DNA of 58,563 nucleotides, from NCBI GenBank assembly GCA_014238615.1, contig JABAAT010000041.1:1-58563 (forward strand), given 5' to 3'. A program made the translations under genes and the position numbers. The notes below the pieces were generated by a model that had not been told where the DNA came from, did no database searches, and was given only the letters and a program-made list of their open reading frames with translations. Every line of letters begins with the position of its first letter. The stretch's first letter is position 1. This stretch comes from Gammaproteobacteria bacterium. Its GTDB lineage: Bacteria; Pseudomonadota; Gammaproteobacteria; Porifericomitales; Porifericomitaceae. Shown in pieces: positions 3,492 to 33,450 of the stretch.

Positions 3492-6188
3492 ATGAAAATC
3501 GTTTTCCCCTTGCTCAGTTACGGCTGCTTGTTCAGCCTGCATCCGATCTACAAGGAACTAGAGAAACGGGGGCATGTTGTCCGCTATTTGTTACGAGCCA
3601 GACGTAAAAAATGCTTTGTGGAATTTCGAAGGGATTTTCCAACCTACGGGATCAGCACCGAGTCAAACGCGGACCGTAACGCGGATGTAGTCGTCGCACG
3701 AGGAGCTGCAAGAAGATTTACCAACGCGATACAAATCAAGTTGATTTACGGCGTTAATCTACTACACCAACAGGGCTTCGCCCAAAGTCGGGCAGCCTTG
3801 GAAGGTTATGACGGAGCCTTGGCCTTTGGCGACTACTCGGCCCAACAAGCCGCCGCGTGGCTGCCGTCGGCGCGAGTCAAGTCGATCGGTTCGCCGATGC
3901 ATGATGATTTTTTCCGTAATCCCCCCGATGCGGCGACGACGCGGGCGCGCTTCGGAATCGCTCCCGAAGACAAACTCATCGTATATGTCACGACCTGGGA
4001 CGAACATTGCGGTGTCAGCCTGTTCGGCGCGCCGCTGCGGAACCTGGCGCGGGAACATGTCATGGTGGTACGCCCGCACCAGGGTATCTACGATGTGATA
4101 TCCCTCGGCATCTATCAAAGATATGCCCTCGAGACCGGTTGCCACCATTATTTCTCTCCGCCGGGTACGGCGAGTGCTATTGAAAAGCTGACTCCGCATC
4201 ACGACTTTCCCCGCCCTTTACCGGGGGAAATGATCCATAGCATGGGGGAGATCGTGCGCGCCGCCGACCTGTTGATCGTGGACGCCAAAAGCGGTTCCCT
4301 GGCGGAGTGCGTCCTATGTGCGCCGCAAACGCCTCTGATCGGCCTGTCCACGATGAGTGACGGTGAAAAGAATCGTCGCTTTCTGCCGGAAGTCTATGAA
4401 ATCTGTACGCTCGTGAATCATCCCGCACGGTTGGAGTCCGCGGTGCGGGACGCCTTGGCCGACGACCCGCTCGCCGAGCGGCGCGCCGCCTTGCGCGACC
4501 AGTTGTTCAGGCCCTGCGAGGGCCGCGCCGCTGCGGTCGCCGCCGACGCCATCCTGGAATTGGCCCGAATGCCGCGGCTCGCGAAACCACGGGCACCGCA
4601 CCGCCTGGGTGTGCGCCTGCGCCGTTCGCTGCGGAAAAGATGGATGCGCGTCCTGGCACTCCGCAAGGTCACCGGCGCACTGGTGCCCCCTTACCGCCGC
4701 TGCATGTCCTGGCTCCGGAAGCATTCATTGCCCGGACAGGGGGTCCGCGTATTGGTGGACGGCCGGCGGGAGATGCCGCCTTACCCGGAAGTGTCCGGCT
4801 ACCTGATTCCGACCCTGCTGCGCTGGGGAGAACGCACCCTGGCCCTGCAATATGCCCGCTGGCTCATCGGCCTGCAACGGCCGGACGGCGGTTGGTGCGA
4901 TGCTCATGGTAAGGCGCCATACGTATTTGGCAGCGGCCAGATCCTGAAGGGCCTGCTGGCGGTGGTGGAACTGCAGCCGGACGCGGAAAAGGCGATCCTG
5001 CGCGGCTGCGATTGGCTGCTGACCCACATCACTCCCGAAGGCCGGATGACATCGCCCACGCGGGAAATGTGGGACGAGTCGACGGGCGTTACCGACCTGA
5101 TACACCTTTACTGCCTGGAGCCGCTCCGCCTGGCCGCACGGCGCTTCCAGCGGCCACAATACGAGGAGGCGGCGCAAAAAGTGTTGGCCTACTACCTGCG
5201 CGAGCATAGGGATAAGCTCCTGGATTTCCATGCGCTGTCGCATTTCTACGCCTACATGCTGGAAGGACTCGTGGATATGGGGGAAACAGACACGGCGCGC
5301 GCCGCCATGCGGCAGGTGGCGGCCTTGCAAAAACAGGACGGCTCCATCCCGGCCTACAAGGACGTGTCCTGGGTCTGCTCGGTCGGACTGCTGCAGTTTG
5401 CCGTGATCTGGTACAAGCTCGGTGACCTGGAACGCGCCGATCGCGCCCTGAATTGCGTCGTGAAAAAACAGCACGCCGGCGGCGGCTTTCATGGTAGTTG
5501 GGGAAGCGGCGCGAACTACTGTAAAAAACAGGAAATCAGCTGGGCCTGTAAATATTTTCTGGACGCGCTGTATTGGAAGCAGCAAGTCCATTTCGAGCAC
5601 GCGAGGGAACGGGGCCGCGCCGCCGTGATGGCGCCGGCGGCCGGCGATACGCTGCGGGAAACGGACGGGCGGGTACAGGGCGCCTTGCATGCCATCACCG
5701 ACGCCGCACCGGCAAGTCTCCTGGAAATGGGTTGCGGCCAGGGCCGGATCACGCGCTTCATCAGGCAGCGCTTCCCGAAACTCCGGATCTGCGGCCTGGA
5801 TATCGACCCACGCAACCTGGACGAACTGCCGCCGGACATCGAAAGGACGTGCGGCGGCATGCTGGCGACGCCTTTTCCGGATGCTTCCTTTGACTTCGTG
5901 CTCTACGTGGAATCCCTGTTACACGCCGTGGATGTCGAGAACGCCTTGCGCGAGGCGGCGCGGCTCCTGGCACCGGGAGGCACGCTGCTGGTCGTTGACA
6001 AGGACATAAGAACCAGGGTCAGGATGCCTATCCCACCCTGGGAACAATGGTTTCACCCGGAGGAACTGGCGGCGACGGCGCTGCACACCGGCTTCACCGC
6101 GGTGCGGGTGCAAAGCAACATTCCCTATGATCATCGCGACGGCAGCGACGGGCTGTTCTTTGCCCTGGCGGCAAGGAAAGGCGGCTGA
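3492..6188 (+). CDS. Three-domain surface-polymer protein: CDP-glycerol-transferase-like + alpha/alpha toroid + SAM methyltransferase
   Basis: An 898-residue protein with three fused parts. Residues 1-360 resemble GT-B enzymes of the CDP-glycerol glycerophosphotransferase (TagF-like) group; VRPHQG near 194-199 and DAKSGSLAE near 264-272 fit their donor-binding region. Residues 415-700 form helical repeats with GWCDA, QDGSIPAY and GGGFHGSWG loops, typical of alpha/alpha toroid folds seen in terpene cyclases and glycan-active enzymes. Residues 725-898 are a class I methyltransferase with motif I LEMGCGQG at 743-750 and acidic CGLDID at 767-772. It has no signal peptide. A LicC-like cytidylyltransferase follows after about 40 bases. 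Inference: it builds and methylates a phospho-alcohol or phospho-sugar surface group. The first 300 bases are visibly richer in A/T than the housekeeping genes, hinting at transfer. Domain assignment is moderately sure; the reaction is not known. Confidence 0.72.
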   Translation: MKIVFPLLSYGCLFSLHPIYKELEKRGHVVRYLLRARRKKCFVEFRRDFPTYGISTESNADRNADVVVARGAARRFTNAIQIKLIYGVNLLHQQGFAQSRAALEGYDGALAFGDYSAQQAAAWLPSARVKSIGSPMHDDFFRNPPDAATTRARFGIAPEDKLIVYVTTWDEHCGVSLFGAPLRNLAREHVMVVRPHQGIYDVISLGIYQRYALETGCHHYFSPPGTASAIEKLTPHHDFPRPLPGEMIHSMGEIVRAADLLIVDAKSGSLAECVLCAPQTPLIGLSTMSDGEKNRRFLPEVYEICTLVNHPARLESAVRDALADDPLAERRAALRDQLFRPCEGRAAAVAADAILELARMPRLAKPRAPHRLGVRLRRSLRKRWMRVLALRKVTGALVPPYRRCMSWLRKHSLPGQGVRVLVDGRREMPPYPEVSGYLIPTLLRWGERTLALQYARWLIGLQRPDGGWCDAHGKAPYVFGSGQILKGLLAVVELQPDAEKAILRGCDWLLTHITPEGRMTSPTREMWDESTGVTDLIHLYCLEPLRLAARRFQRPQYEEAAQKVLAYYLREHRDKLLDFHALSHFYAYMLEGLVDMGETDTARAAMRQVAALQKQDGSIPAYKDVSWVCSVGLLQFAVIWYKLGDLERADRALNCVVKKQHAGGGFHGSWGSGANYCKKQEISWACKYFLDALYWKQQVHFEHARERGRAAVMAPAAGDTLRETDGRVQGALHAITDAAPASLLEMGCGQGRITRFIRQRFPKLRICGLDIDPRNLDELPPDIERTCGGMLATPFPDASFDFVLYVESLLHAVDVENALREAARLLAPGGTLLVVDKDIRTRVRMPIPPWEQWFHPEELAATALHTGFTAVRVQSNIPYDHRDGSDGLFFALAARKGG

Positions 6189-29402: not shown

Positions 29403-30149
29403 CTACGGGCGCAGACAGGGCGCGGCGCGGCGCAGGCCGCGCAAGGCGCGCCAGTAACAACCAGCCAGGACCGCCAGGCCGTGCCATTGCGCGGGCCAGG
29501 CCAGGGGGCGGGCCAGCATGCCCCGGCCGAAGCGCCCCCAGTGCCAGTCGGTGTTCTCGTCCATGGCGCCGGGGACGCAATCAGGCAGGGCCAGTTCCAG
29601 GGGATCGGCGACCGCGCGCAGGATCGCCGCGGGCCGCCCGGCAGCCGCCGCCGCGCGCACCACACCCAGGCTCTCCATATCCGCCAGCGCCGCGCCCGAA
29701 GACCGTCCGGCCCGGCGCTTCACGTCCGGATTGCTCATCAGGCTGGAGGCGTGCCACAGGGCGCCGACGCGCGCGCTCAGGCCACGCCGCCGCAAACATG
29801 CGCACAAGGCCCGGACCCAATCCCCGTCCAGCGGCCAGCGTCGCTCATCGTGCACAAGGAGATCGGAAACCAGGAGTTCACCCGGCCGCCAATCGGGCTG
29901 CAGCCCCCCCCCAACACCCCAACTCAGGAGTCGCTCCGCTCCGCCTTCCAGAAGACGCCGTGAAGCCTGTTCGGCAGCCGCCGCGCCGCTTCCGGATAAG
30001 ACCACCAACAACCCCGAGGCCACTTCCCTGATTTGACCCCGGGTGGGGCGCCGCAGACCCAGGCAACGTGCTTCCCCCGGCCAGGCGGCCACCACTCCCA
30101 GGATCGGTAACCTGGCGCGCGTGCCGCCCCCTTGCTCAAATCCGTTCAA
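29403..30149 (-). CDS. hpnG: Hopanoid-associated phosphorylase HpnG
   Basis: Nucleoside-phosphorylase-family enzyme that releases adenine from adenosylhopane to give ribosylhopane phosphate. The 248-residue product has LPILGVVAAWPGEARCL at its start, the LSGSGAAAAEQASRRLL segment, LLSWGVGGGLQP, and LADMESLGVVRAAAAAGRPAA, where the MES segment marks the purine/nucleoside phosphorylase active site. It begins 23 bases after the squalene-hopene cyclase stop. Context and family agree, so confidence is good; biochemical role follows HpnG work in other bacteria. Confidence 0.88.
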   Translation of the reverse strand: MNGFEQGGGTRARLPILGVVAAWPGEARCLGLRRPTRGQIREVASGLLVVLSGSGAAAAEQASRRLLEGGAERLLSWGVGGGLQPDWRPGELLVSDLLVHDERRWPLDGDWVRALCACLRRRGLSARVGALWHASSLMSNPDVKRRAGRSSGAALADMESLGVVRAAAAAGRPAAILRAVADPLELALPDCVPGAMDENTDWHWGRFGRGMLARPLAWPAQWHGLAVLAGCYWRALRGLRRAAPCLRP

Positions 30150-30172: not shown

Positions 30173-32131
30173 TCAGGAGGATTGCGTTTGGCGATGCACC
30201 AAACGGCGGTACCGCCCCAGGGCCCAAAGTGGGAAATACCTGCTGTAGCCGTGGTAGCGCAGGTAGAAAACGCGCGGGAAACCGGGCGCGGTGAATTCCT
30301 CGCTGTTCCACAGGCCATCGTCCTGCTGAGTGTGCAGCAGATGCTCTACTCCCCGGCATACGGCCTCGGAATGCGCTTCGCCACACGCCAGCAGGCCAAG
30401 CAGCGCCCATGCGGTCTGGAAAGGAGTGCCGACACCGCAACCGGCCTGCTCGCGCCATATATAACTATCGTTGCTTTCCCCCCAGCTGCCATCGGTATTC
30501 TGGATCTTTTTCAGCCAGGCTGCGGCGCGCCGCACACGCGGGTCATCCGGCCGCACGCCGACCTGCTCCAGGGCGGAGAGCACCGACCAGGTGCCGTATA
30601 TGTAGTTTGTGCCCCAACGCCCGAACCAGGAGCCATCCTCCTCCTGTTCCCGCCACAGGAAATTCAACGCGCGCGCCGCGGCCGCCCGGTGCGCGGGTTC
30701 CGGACTTCGGCCCAATAGCACCAGGCAGCGCGCCGTGACATCGCTGGTCGGCGGATCCAACAGGGCCCCGTGGTCGGCGAAGGGGATGTAATTCAGGTAG
30801 TAGCAGGTATTGTCCGAGTCGAATGAGCCATAGCCGCCGTTCCTGGACTGCATGCCATGCACCCATTCAGCAGCCTGTGCAATCGGTTCCCTGTAACGCT
30901 CCGGGTCTGTCTCGCGCATGGCCCAGGCCACCACGGGCGTTGAGTCCAGATCGGGATAATGGTTGTTGCTGAACTGGAAAGCCCAGCCGCCGCCGGCCAG
31001 GTCCGGGTGTTTCTCCCGCCAGTCGCCGACCGACGCCTTCAGCACCTGTCGGCCGCGCAGCCAGTCCAGGGCCCGCACCAGGGGAATGTGACAGGCTTCG
31101 GGGTCAGCCTCCGCCAGGGCCAGGCAGCCCAGGGACGTGTCCCAGACCGGGGAGACGCAGGGCTGACAGGAAACGCTGCCATCGGGGCGCCGCACCAGCA
31201 GCTTGCGCAGGGCCTCACGGGCCTCCTTGCAGTAGGGATGCCCGGGTGCGTAGCCCAGTAATCCCAAGGCCTCATAGGCATTCACCATGGCCGGGAAGAT
31301 ACAGCCCAGGCCGTGGACGCCGTTCAGGCGCGGAATCAGCCAGTCGGCGGAGGCGCGCAGCGCGCGGGCGCGCAAGACCCTGGGGATCAGCGGTTCAAGA
31401 AGCCGCGCCGTCCGATCCCAGACCAGGAACAGGCGACCCAGCAGGCCTTGCGGCCGGAAGTAGTGGCGTTCCTGCTCCGCCGGTACGGTAAATAATTCGG
31501 CGATGCCCCTGCCGCGCTGGTTGACCGCCGCCGGTTTGACGCTGCAGAGCACCGCCAGCGGCACCAACACGGTGCGCGACCAGTAAGATATCTTCGAGAT
31601 GTGGAAGGGAAACCAACGCGGCAGCAGCATGTGCTCCACCGGAAGAAAGGGCACCCCGCGCCACGGGATCTGCCCGAACAGGGCCAGGGTGATACGTGTG
31701 AAAACGTTGCTGCGCGCCGCGCCGCCGTGCGCAAGGATCGCCTCGCGTGCGCGCCGCATATGCGGCGCCTGGGGATCGTCACCGCAAAGCTTCAAGGCGT
31801 AGTAAACCTTGACCGAGCAACTCATGTCAAAGTCGCCGCCGTGGTACAGGGGCCAGCCGCCTTGCTCAAGCTGCACGGCGCGCAACAACCCGGCAATGCG
31901 GCCCTCCAGTTCCTCCTCCGGCTCCCCCATGAAATGGGTCATGAGAATGTATTCGGCCGGGATGGTGCAGTCGGCCTCCAATTCCCAGGCCCACCAGCCC
32001 TCGTCGTGTTGCAGGCGCAACAAGGCCTGCACGGCTTCCTCAACGGCCGTGTTAACGGAGCGCGTGGCCGACCCAACGTCAGCAGGCGTCTCCCAGTCGT
32101 ACTCAAAGGCTGATTTCGGGTTCGTTGACAT
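30173..32131 (-). CDS. shc: Squalene-hopene cyclase with altered catalytic triad motif
   Basis: Membrane-associated cyclase that folds squalene to hopene/hopanol. The 652-residue product shows repeated QW motifs (for example HDEGWWAWELEADCTIPAEY, EEDGSWFGRWGTNYIYGTW, NTDGSWGESNDSY and QQDDGLW) and the channel segment GSFDSDNTCYYLN. The protonation motif, normally DxDDT, reads D394-L-D396-S-T-P: the third Asp is Ser and the residue after Thr is Pro. The nucleotides around it form an intact frame. The central Asp that donates the proton is kept, so activity is possible but may be altered in product or substrate. Downstream hpnG supports hopanoid function. The ATG at 32131 starts MSTNPKSAFEYDW. 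Confidence 0.93.
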   Translation of the reverse strand: MSTNPKSAFEYDWETPADVGSATRSVNTAVEEAVQALLRLQHDEGWWAWELEADCTIPAEYILMTHFMGEPEEELEGRIAGLLRAVQLEQGGWPLYHGGDFDMSCSVKVYYALKLCGDDPQAPHMRRAREAILAHGGAARSNVFTRITLALFGQIPWRGVPFLPVEHMLLPRWFPFHISKISYWSRTVLVPLAVLCSVKPAAVNQRGRGIAELFTVPAEQERHYFRPQGLLGRLFLVWDRTARLLEPLIPRVLRARALRASADWLIPRLNGVHGLGCIFPAMVNAYEALGLLGYAPGHPYCKEAREALRKLLVRRPDGSVSCQPCVSPVWDTSLGCLALAEADPEACHIPLVRALDWLRGRQVLKASVGDWREKHPDLAGGGWAFQFSNNHYPDLDSTPVVAWAMRETDPERYREPIAQAAEWVHGMQSRNGGYGSFDSDNTCYYLNYIPFADHGALLDPPTSDVTARCLVLLGRSPEPAHRAAAARALNFLWREQEEDGSWFGRWGTNYIYGTWSVLSALEQVGVRPDDPRVRRAAAWLKKIQNTDGSWGESNDSYIWREQAGCGVGTPFQTAWALLGLLACGEAHSEAVCRGVEHLLHTQQDDGLWNSEEFTAPGFPRVFYLRYHGYSRYFPLWALGRYRRLVHRQTQSS

Positions 32132-32240: not shown

Positions 32241-33287
32241 TCAGGTCATCGGCGCGGCGCGCAAAGCGCGGGTATAGCAGCGGAAAAGCAACCGCAGCGC
32301 CGCATCCATACGGCTCAGCGCCGTCAAGGTAGCGGTGCCGACGCGCACCGCGCGGCGGCTGATTTTCACCTGTTGACCACTGCTGAAGTCGGGCCGCCTG
32401 TGAATGCGGCGCAAGGTCAACACCGCCATCCCCAGCGCCCAGAGACAGAAACACCGGATGCCGTTCTCCCGCCGTGGGATCAGCAGGGTGTAACGCAGGG
32501 CCTCACGCAGGCGCCCGGCGGCGATGTCCAGCAACTGCTCCAGGCCGCGGCGGAAACCCGGTGCGTCCGGCTCCCGCACCAGCTGCTCCAGTTCAAAGCC
32601 ATGGCGACGGAATACCTCGCGGGGCAGCCAGCAGGCGCCGCGCTGCCGATCTTCCCAGAGGTCCTTGAGAATGTTGGTCATCTGCAGGCCCTGCCCGAAA
32701 GACACCGAAAGCGGCAACAACTCGGTGCGGTGCGTGGCGATGTCCGGAGAGTAGTCACAGAACAGTTCGGTCAGCATTTCCCCCACGACACCGGCGACAT
32801 GATAACAATAATCATCCAAATCCTCCATATCCGCCAGCCCGACTGTATCCGAACACTGCTGCTGGAAACGCGTCATGCCGCGCGCCATGATGCGTACACA
32901 GCGCTGCAGCGCGGCGCGCTGCACCGGGGTGCAGGCCGCCGTGATGCGCAAAATGGAAGGTAAGCGCTCCAACAGCTCTCGTTCCGCGGGCGGCGTGGCC
33001 GCCGCCAGGCGCGGCACCACTTCACGGCCCAATGCGGCGGCATCCGTGATGTTGCAGCCTCCATCCAGCAGTGCGATAAAGCGCTCCGCGTAGTGCTGCT
33101 TCAGCCCGCTGCTCATCTCCAGATCGTCTTCAATGGTGTCGGCGACGCGGCAAAGCAGGTAGCCATTGCCAACCACCCGGGCGAGCGGACCCGGCAACCG
33201 CGGAATCGTCAAGGCGAAGGTGCGGGAGACTCCCTGTAACGCGCGCTGCTGGTATTCTAGATCTGTGGCATGAACTGCTTGTTGCAT
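32241..33287 (-). CDS. Squalene synthase (class I trans-prenyl synthase)
   Basis: Head-to-head condensation of farnesyl diphosphate to squalene for the cyclase. The 348-residue product has the first Asp-rich motif CRVADTIEDD (residues about 46-54) and the second NILKDLWEDRQRG, with SRTFALTIP at the start. It is a single enzyme; the HpnC/HpnD/HpnE three-step set is not seen. Known methanotroph squalene synthases of this one-step kind exist, so squalene synthase is the preferred call, but HpnC- or HpnD-like or phytoene synthase activity is possible. The ATG at 33287 begins MQQAVHATD. It lies about 110 bases upstream of shc on the same strand. Confidence 0.85.
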   Translation of the reverse strand: MQQAVHATDLEYQQRALQGVSRTFALTIPRLPGPLARVVGNGYLLCRVADTIEDDLEMSSGLKQHYAERFIALLDGGCNITDAAALGREVVPRLAAATPPAERELLERLPSILRITAACTPVQRAALQRCVRIMARGMTRFQQQCSDTVGLADMEDLDDYCYHVAGVVGEMLTELFCDYSPDIATHRTELLPLSVSFGQGLQMTNILKDLWEDRQRGACWLPREVFRRHGFELEQLVREPDAPGFRRGLEQLLDIAAGRLREALRYTLLIPRRENGIRCFCLWALGMAVLTLRRIHRRPDFSSGQQVKISRRAVRVGTATLTALSRMDAALRLLFRCYTRALRAAPMT

Positions 33288-33450
33288 AAAGCGCTTATTA
33301 TGGCCTCTTCGCCAAGCCGCAGTCAACGCGCAGCGGCGCAGGCCAGCCACCGGTCAGACCGGCATGGACCGGCAGGCCGGGAAACGCGGGTGATCGCCTG
33401 GTGTATGCTGCACTGAACCATACCTTCGCTCCCGCCGCTCCCGAAGTATC

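Follow-up and report, generated by a model that had tools for sequence, protein, structure and literature searches.

In class II cyclases the middle Asp acts as the acid (PMC9290348, PMC9814783), and in squalene-hopene cyclases (SHCs) the DXDD motif has been described as essential for carbocation stabilisation in the squalene-to-hopene reaction (PMC6127371). When the third Asp of the Alicyclobacillus enzyme (AacSHC) was replaced by Cys, the resulting D377C mutant gave mainly monocyclic 3-deoxyachilleol instead of hopene, with strongly decreased activity (PMC6127371, citing Sato and Hoshino 1999), and the matching mutant of BmeTC, D373C, likewise yields 3-deoxyachilleol (PMC6127371). For oxidosqualene cyclases, hydrogen bonding by the Cys that neighbours the acid Asp has been described, and an SHC in which DDTAVV was changed to DCTAEA was reported to switch its substrate to oxidosqualene (PMC6678101). 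Bacterial drimenol synthases, which are DxDTT enzymes, are active, and replacing their middle Asp abolishes the activity (PMC9128629). Literature searches on natural variants and on position 377, in a collection that covers a minority of the subscription journals, turned up no naturally occurring squalene cyclase with DxDS.

The window, by which we mean the whole stretch of 58,563 nucleotides analysed here, encodes an SHC homologue in which the third Asp of this motif is Ser. A near-universal catalytic residue has been replaced in an otherwise ordinary, apparently functional gene, this being one residue in one draft genome (G000; 1.67 Mb, 99% complete, in 75 contigs). The features of the locus are as follows.

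29403..30149, minus strand: HpnG-like phosphorylase, the next gene downstream of the SHC; best NCBIfam match TIGR03468 HpnG at 125.7 bits, under the cut-off of 187.1.
30173..32131, minus strand: SHC homologue of 652 aa, identified by TIGR01507, PF13243, phmmer and the AlphaFold2 fold.
30935..30937, minus strand: Pro399 (AacSHC A379), a clade feature and not private to the window; in 5 of 81 sequences, one clade, SH-aLRT 99.
30941..30943, minus strand: Ser397 codon TCA, where AacSHC has D377; Asp in 80 of 81 aligned SHCs.
30941..30952, minus strand: DxDD motif positions, D394-L395-D396-S397, codons GAT CTG GAC TCA, aligned with AacSHC 374-377.
32241..33350, minus strand: squalene synthase homologue, the next gene upstream of the SHC; best NCBIfam match TIGR01559 at 97.6 bits, under the cut-off of 286.75.

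The SHC reading frame is uninterrupted from ATG to stop over 652 codons. Its product scores 796 bits against NCBIfam TIGR01507 (curated cut-off 431.1) and 443 bits against PF13243, the family on which the Pfam assignment rests; phmmer gave 1.5e-132 against AacSHC. The AlphaFold2 model, with a mean pLDDT of 88.9 and 91 over residues 391-400, matched the AacSHC entries 1sqc, 2sqc and 3sqc with TM-scores of 0.89-0.90 (by query length), at 39-40% identity in the structural alignment. In a phylogenetic tree the enzyme falls within a clade with four SHCs that read DxDDTP. By descent, fold and score it belongs with the squalene-hopene cyclases, and we infer that it functions as a hopene synthase. It departs from the family in the DXDD active-site motif, which reads DLDS, with the first two Asp kept and the third replaced by Ser. 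The residues corresponding to D374 and to the proton donor D376 of AacSHC are Asp in 81 of 81 aligned SHCs, the window enzyme included.

An earlier note on this DNA had read the motif as D-L-D-S-T-P at residues 394-399, with Ser for the third Asp and the proton-donating Asp retained, and both the codons and the alignments with AacSHC confirm this. Codons 394-399 are GAT CTG GAC TCA ACG CCC, translated as D L D S T P; GGWAFQFSNNHYPDLDSTPVV of the window SHC aligns with GGFAFQFDNVYYPDVDDTAVV of AacSHC, and pairwise and multiple alignments agree that D394 corresponds to D374, D396 to D376 and Ser397 to D377. The span that the note gave for the motif, 30941-30952, holds for residues 394-397, and T398-P399 fall just below it. 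TCA differs from both Asp codons, GAT and GAC, at all three codon positions, and a single base error therefore cannot produce Ser397.

We asked how rare Ser is at this position. In an alignment of 81 SHCs, comprising AacSHC, the window enzyme, named relatives and relatives from further genomes, 80 have Asp at position 377 and the window alone has Ser, and positions 374, 376 and 378 are invariant. Two partial sequences, L007 and L042, were left out of this alignment and of a 73-row alignment, as was L061, whose gene is divided between two ORFs; all three show Asp at position 377. The L061 gene, from genome G286, has an intact DxDDTA and is either broken or an assembly error. A DNA motif pattern that leaves position 377 free was also used in two wider surveys, in both of which the reversed control pattern gave 0 matches and the residues were counted by eye from tables. 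Of 398 genomes of the phylum, 45 yielded 48 motif sites (47 of 48 Asp, the window being Ser); of 385 genomes belonging to a second class, 95 yielded 97 sites, every one of them with Asp. Ten sites are common to both surveys, giving 135 distinct sites with Asp at 134 and the window as the exception; 10 of the 48 phylum-survey sites, including those of G323 and the window, were confirmed as SHC genes, and the 87 sites found only in the second survey are pattern matches alone.

A looser motif pattern, searched within the window's own class, gave 31 sites in 31 of 369 genomes, and its reversed control gave 3 matches, in G166, G217 and G348. The surrounding locus was inspected for 30 of the 31 sites, of which 22 contain an SHC-like ORF (21 with Asp and one, the window, with Ser) and 8 contain none; the odd third residues at these 8 sites are taken as chance matches. 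The remaining site, in G155 and known from the pattern match alone, has Phe at the position. The idea that non-Asp variants are common was rejected, since 21 of the 22 SHC-like ORFs have Asp and the 8 odd sites lie outside such ORFs. Nor, in this sample, is Ser the common and benign state among close relatives that the earlier note had considered. As a separate observation, genome G476, from another class of the phylum, carries two SHC paralogues, L109 and L110, one of which reads DDTG and the other DDTS; in the same family L107, L108, L111 and L112 read DDTS and L113 reads DDTG.

A maximum-likelihood tree of 75 SHCs, from which L045, L046, L050, L053, L111 and L112 were left out besides, groups the window enzyme with L002 (of the same family), L071, L072 and L074 (SH-aLRT 99). 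All four clade-mates read DLDDTP, so that Pro marks the clade and Ser is a change on the window's own branch. The earlier note was correct that Pro follows Thr, but this is no oddity: of the 81 sequences only the window and its clade-mates, 5 in total, have P379, and the four clade-mates all have Asp at position 377. We therefore rejected Pro, common to the whole clade, as part of the anomaly. An alignment check on whether Ser defines a clade came out negative, and Ser was rejected as a clade marker for this sample, because Asp is present in the rest of the clade as well as in the remaining relatives of the sample. The replacement of the third Asp is real and, within the sample, private to the window's lineage. 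The branch lengths are 0.51 for the window, 0.69 for its family relative L002 and 0.39 for L074.

The AacSHC residues kept in the window enzyme are W169, W312, D313, F365, D374, D376, D447, W489, Y495, F601, F605, Y609 and Y612. The residues aligned with F601, F605, Y609 and Y612 help to shape the product. At other listed active-site positions the window departs from AacSHC, having Phe at 262, Pro at 306, Cys at 307, Phe at 420, His at 437 and Arg at 451, forms that are common among relatives. To gauge constraint we took the window enzyme and, from the 73-row alignment, the 30 SHCs closest to it, a set of 31 with 120 invariant gap-free columns. In this set the window makes one private departure from otherwise invariant gap-free columns, which is D377S, and the others make 0 to 9. 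Across 11 genomes that carry HpnH as well, the SHC of the window shows 6 private departures (others 0 to 19) and the HpnH of its genome 6 (others 0 to 13). Nothing in these counts suggests relaxed constraint. Across the 81 rows, taking the columns where over 40 of the other rows have a residue, 23 residues are found in the window only, a count made for the window sequence alone, and S397 is the only one of them at an otherwise invariant column. Compared at the level of sequence, these 23 residues revealed no compensating change near Ser397. The earlier view that the frame and other motifs are intact and that the gene looks functional is supported.

At position 451, the 81 SHCs have Arg in 69 cases, the window included, and His in 12; AacSHC has His, which pairs with D376. 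The electrostatics round the acid may thus differ between the two enzymes, so that the AacSHC mutant need not predict the behaviour of the window enzyme. More widely, this Arg/His split may matter when AacSHC mutants serve to predict proteobacterial enzymes.

The family relative G003 has the same gene order, squalene synthase - SHC - HpnG, and so do G014 and G142, in both of which HpnN follows further downstream. The claim that hpnG adjoins the cyclase holds, in that the gene directly downstream has HpnG as its best match, under the curated cut-off. Elsewhere in the window's genome, hpnH, hpnM, an mlaA-like gene, ispH and dxs lie on one contig and hpnN on another; HpnH, HpnM and HpnN all score over their cut-offs. 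The order is sampled by four genomes, the window's included, with no other member of its genus among them. A squalene synthase homologue is present in all four and is 58-61% identical in the three relatives. The SHC-bearing genomes of the order, G000 and G003, have HpnH and HpnN over cut-off, and in G001 and G002, of the same family, SHC gave no match and neither HpnH nor HpnN exceeds its cut-off. On G001:C108 and G002:C164 (loci L093, L092 and L100) the squalene synthase homologue (58% identity) occurs without a cyclase match. HpnH was found in 11 of 12 chosen SHC-bearing genomes; the twelfth, G051 (88% complete), gave no HpnH at E <= 1e-60.

The check for a second shc proposed in the earlier note was carried out, and the window's genome, which is 99% complete, yielded no further cyclase. 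A weak PF13243 match at window positions 4851-5042 (17.9 bits, cut-off 26.1) was set aside as a second cyclase, the C-terminal part of its ORF being methyltransferase-like. This ORF of 898 aa (3492-6188, plus strand) matches methyltransferases under cut-off in its C-terminal part and has a sub-threshold match to the squalene cyclase C-terminal family.

We consider it probable, though well short of certain, that the gene encodes a working SHC in a bacterium that makes hopanoids, the third DxDD Asp having given way to Ser on this lineage, and that hopene is still a main product. D396 would still protonate the terminal double bond of squalene, and S397 would donate a hydrogen bond to D396, leaving D394 as the sole other carboxylate in the motif. 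The roles of D396 as the acid and of S397 as its hydrogen-bond partner are drawn by analogy: position 377 aligns with the Cys of the SDCTAE motif of lanosterol synthase, and S397 may act much as the Cys of oxidosqualene cyclases does, and as Thr may do in DxDTT enzymes. Hopene (diploptene) would stay a main product and feed HpnH, at a rate probably lower, and with early-stopped by-products probably more abundant, than where the DxDD motif is complete. The window enzyme probably still makes hopene because HpnH, the user of diploptene, is kept, and the retention of HpnH together with HpnN alongside the cyclase argues the same. Against this stands AacSHC D377C, which works slowly and makes mainly 3-deoxyachilleol (PMC6127371). 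HpnH could also act on another alkene, and too little time may have passed since the change for decay to be visible. The window branch is also longer than that of its clade-mate L074, though shorter than that of the family relative, and the co-occurrence of SHC, HpnH and HpnN in the order is a matter of four genomes, one of them just 86% complete, with G051 an SHC-bearing genome without HpnH.

The main rival is a shift to early-stopped products, which we regard as unlikely but as the strongest of the alternatives. Lacking the third Asp, the enzyme would end the cascade early and make chiefly a triterpene with one or two rings, for example 3-deoxyachilleol A, with hopene as a minor product; it would be a natural counterpart of D377C. 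The earlier suggestion that a product shift is possible agrees with AacSHC D377C and BmeTC D373C, both of which give 3-deoxyachilleol, the former instead of hopene (PMC6127371). Moreover, Ser and Cys are alike in shape, and the change is private and needed three bases in an enzyme whose remainder is constrained. On the other hand, the residues aligned with F601, F605, Y609 and Y612, which help to shape the product, are unchanged. HpnH, HpnM and HpnN are retained, and HpnH acts on diploptene (PMC12583986), which also speaks against the shift. The more specific claim of a naturally evolved DxDS class II cyclase, whose physiological product is a mono- or bicyclic triterpene from an early end of the cascade, or else a defined mixture of hopene and monocycle, reached by the route of D377C engineering, strikes us as rather doubtful.

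It is decidedly unlikely, in our view, that the enzyme is impaired, with a slightly or strongly damaging Ser fixed by drift and cyclisation low or absent. The genome is small, AacSHC D377C is slow (PMC6127371), and two family relatives lack SHC, HpnH and HpnN by the searches above, suggesting that the pathway may come and go in the group. However, the gene has neither stop nor frameshift and no surplus of private changes at conserved sites, its partner genes are present, and a single neutral hit would not account for the three base changes in this codon. An assembly or sequencing artefact at the Ser397 codon is very improbable: the codon is seen from the assembly of a single draft genome, with no second genome of the genus in the sample, but the frame is intact, TCA stands three changes from GAT or GAC, and the flanking residues fit the clade (DLD-TP). 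Least probable of all is a shift to 2,3-oxidosqualene or another substrate, with Ser mimicking the Cys of DCTAE, which the earlier note had entertained and which is not favoured here: position 377 is Cys in lanosterol synthase, and the DDTAVV to DCTAEA change was reported to switch the substrate of an SHC (PMC6678101), but the other positions altered in that switch, 380 and 381, are V-V in the window SHC, no match to the squalene epoxidase family PF08491 was found at E <= 0.01 in the window's genome (alternative epoxidases of unknown type being possible), and the SHC score of 796 bits is far above the 234.1 bits against the oxidosqualene cyclase family TIGR03463, itself below the cut-off of 851.

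The window enzyme is a natural test of whether the third Asp is truly needed, and a sharp test case for the tuning of the acid in class II cyclases. If the Ser enzyme makes hopene efficiently, the third carboxylate is dispensable in a proteobacterial setting and the picture of acid tuning needs revision. If the product is monocyclic, the gene would be a natural source for a step in ambrein synthesis that is now done with a slow mutant (PMC6127371), and its lipid would be misread by surveys based on hopanoid genes. A published screen for new SHCs selected on DXDD as a family-specific motif (PMC9290348), and enzymes like this one can therefore be missed.

How does the enzyme compare with known systems? 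The SHCs of the DxDDTP clade, L002, L071, L072 and L074, are 61-65% identical to it and share the Pro after Thr, but have Asp at position 377 where the window has Ser; L002 is alike in the listed active-site residues except at positions 377 and 380. AacSHC D377C resembles it in having a small polar side chain in place of Asp at the same position, but that mutant is man-made, has Cys and not Ser, and lies in a host enzyme only 39-40% identical, with His where the window has Arg at 451. In the oxidosqualene cyclases (DCTAE), as in the window SHC, a non-carboxylate residue adjoins the proton-donor Asp; the window reads DSTPV, however, which is not a DCTAE motif and has no counterpart of its Glu. 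The DxDTT class II terpene synthases also carry a hydroxyl residue where DxDD has its final Asp, and the DxDTT site works (PMC9128629), but these enzymes use farnesyl diphosphate as substrate, have another architecture and carry Thr, not Ser.
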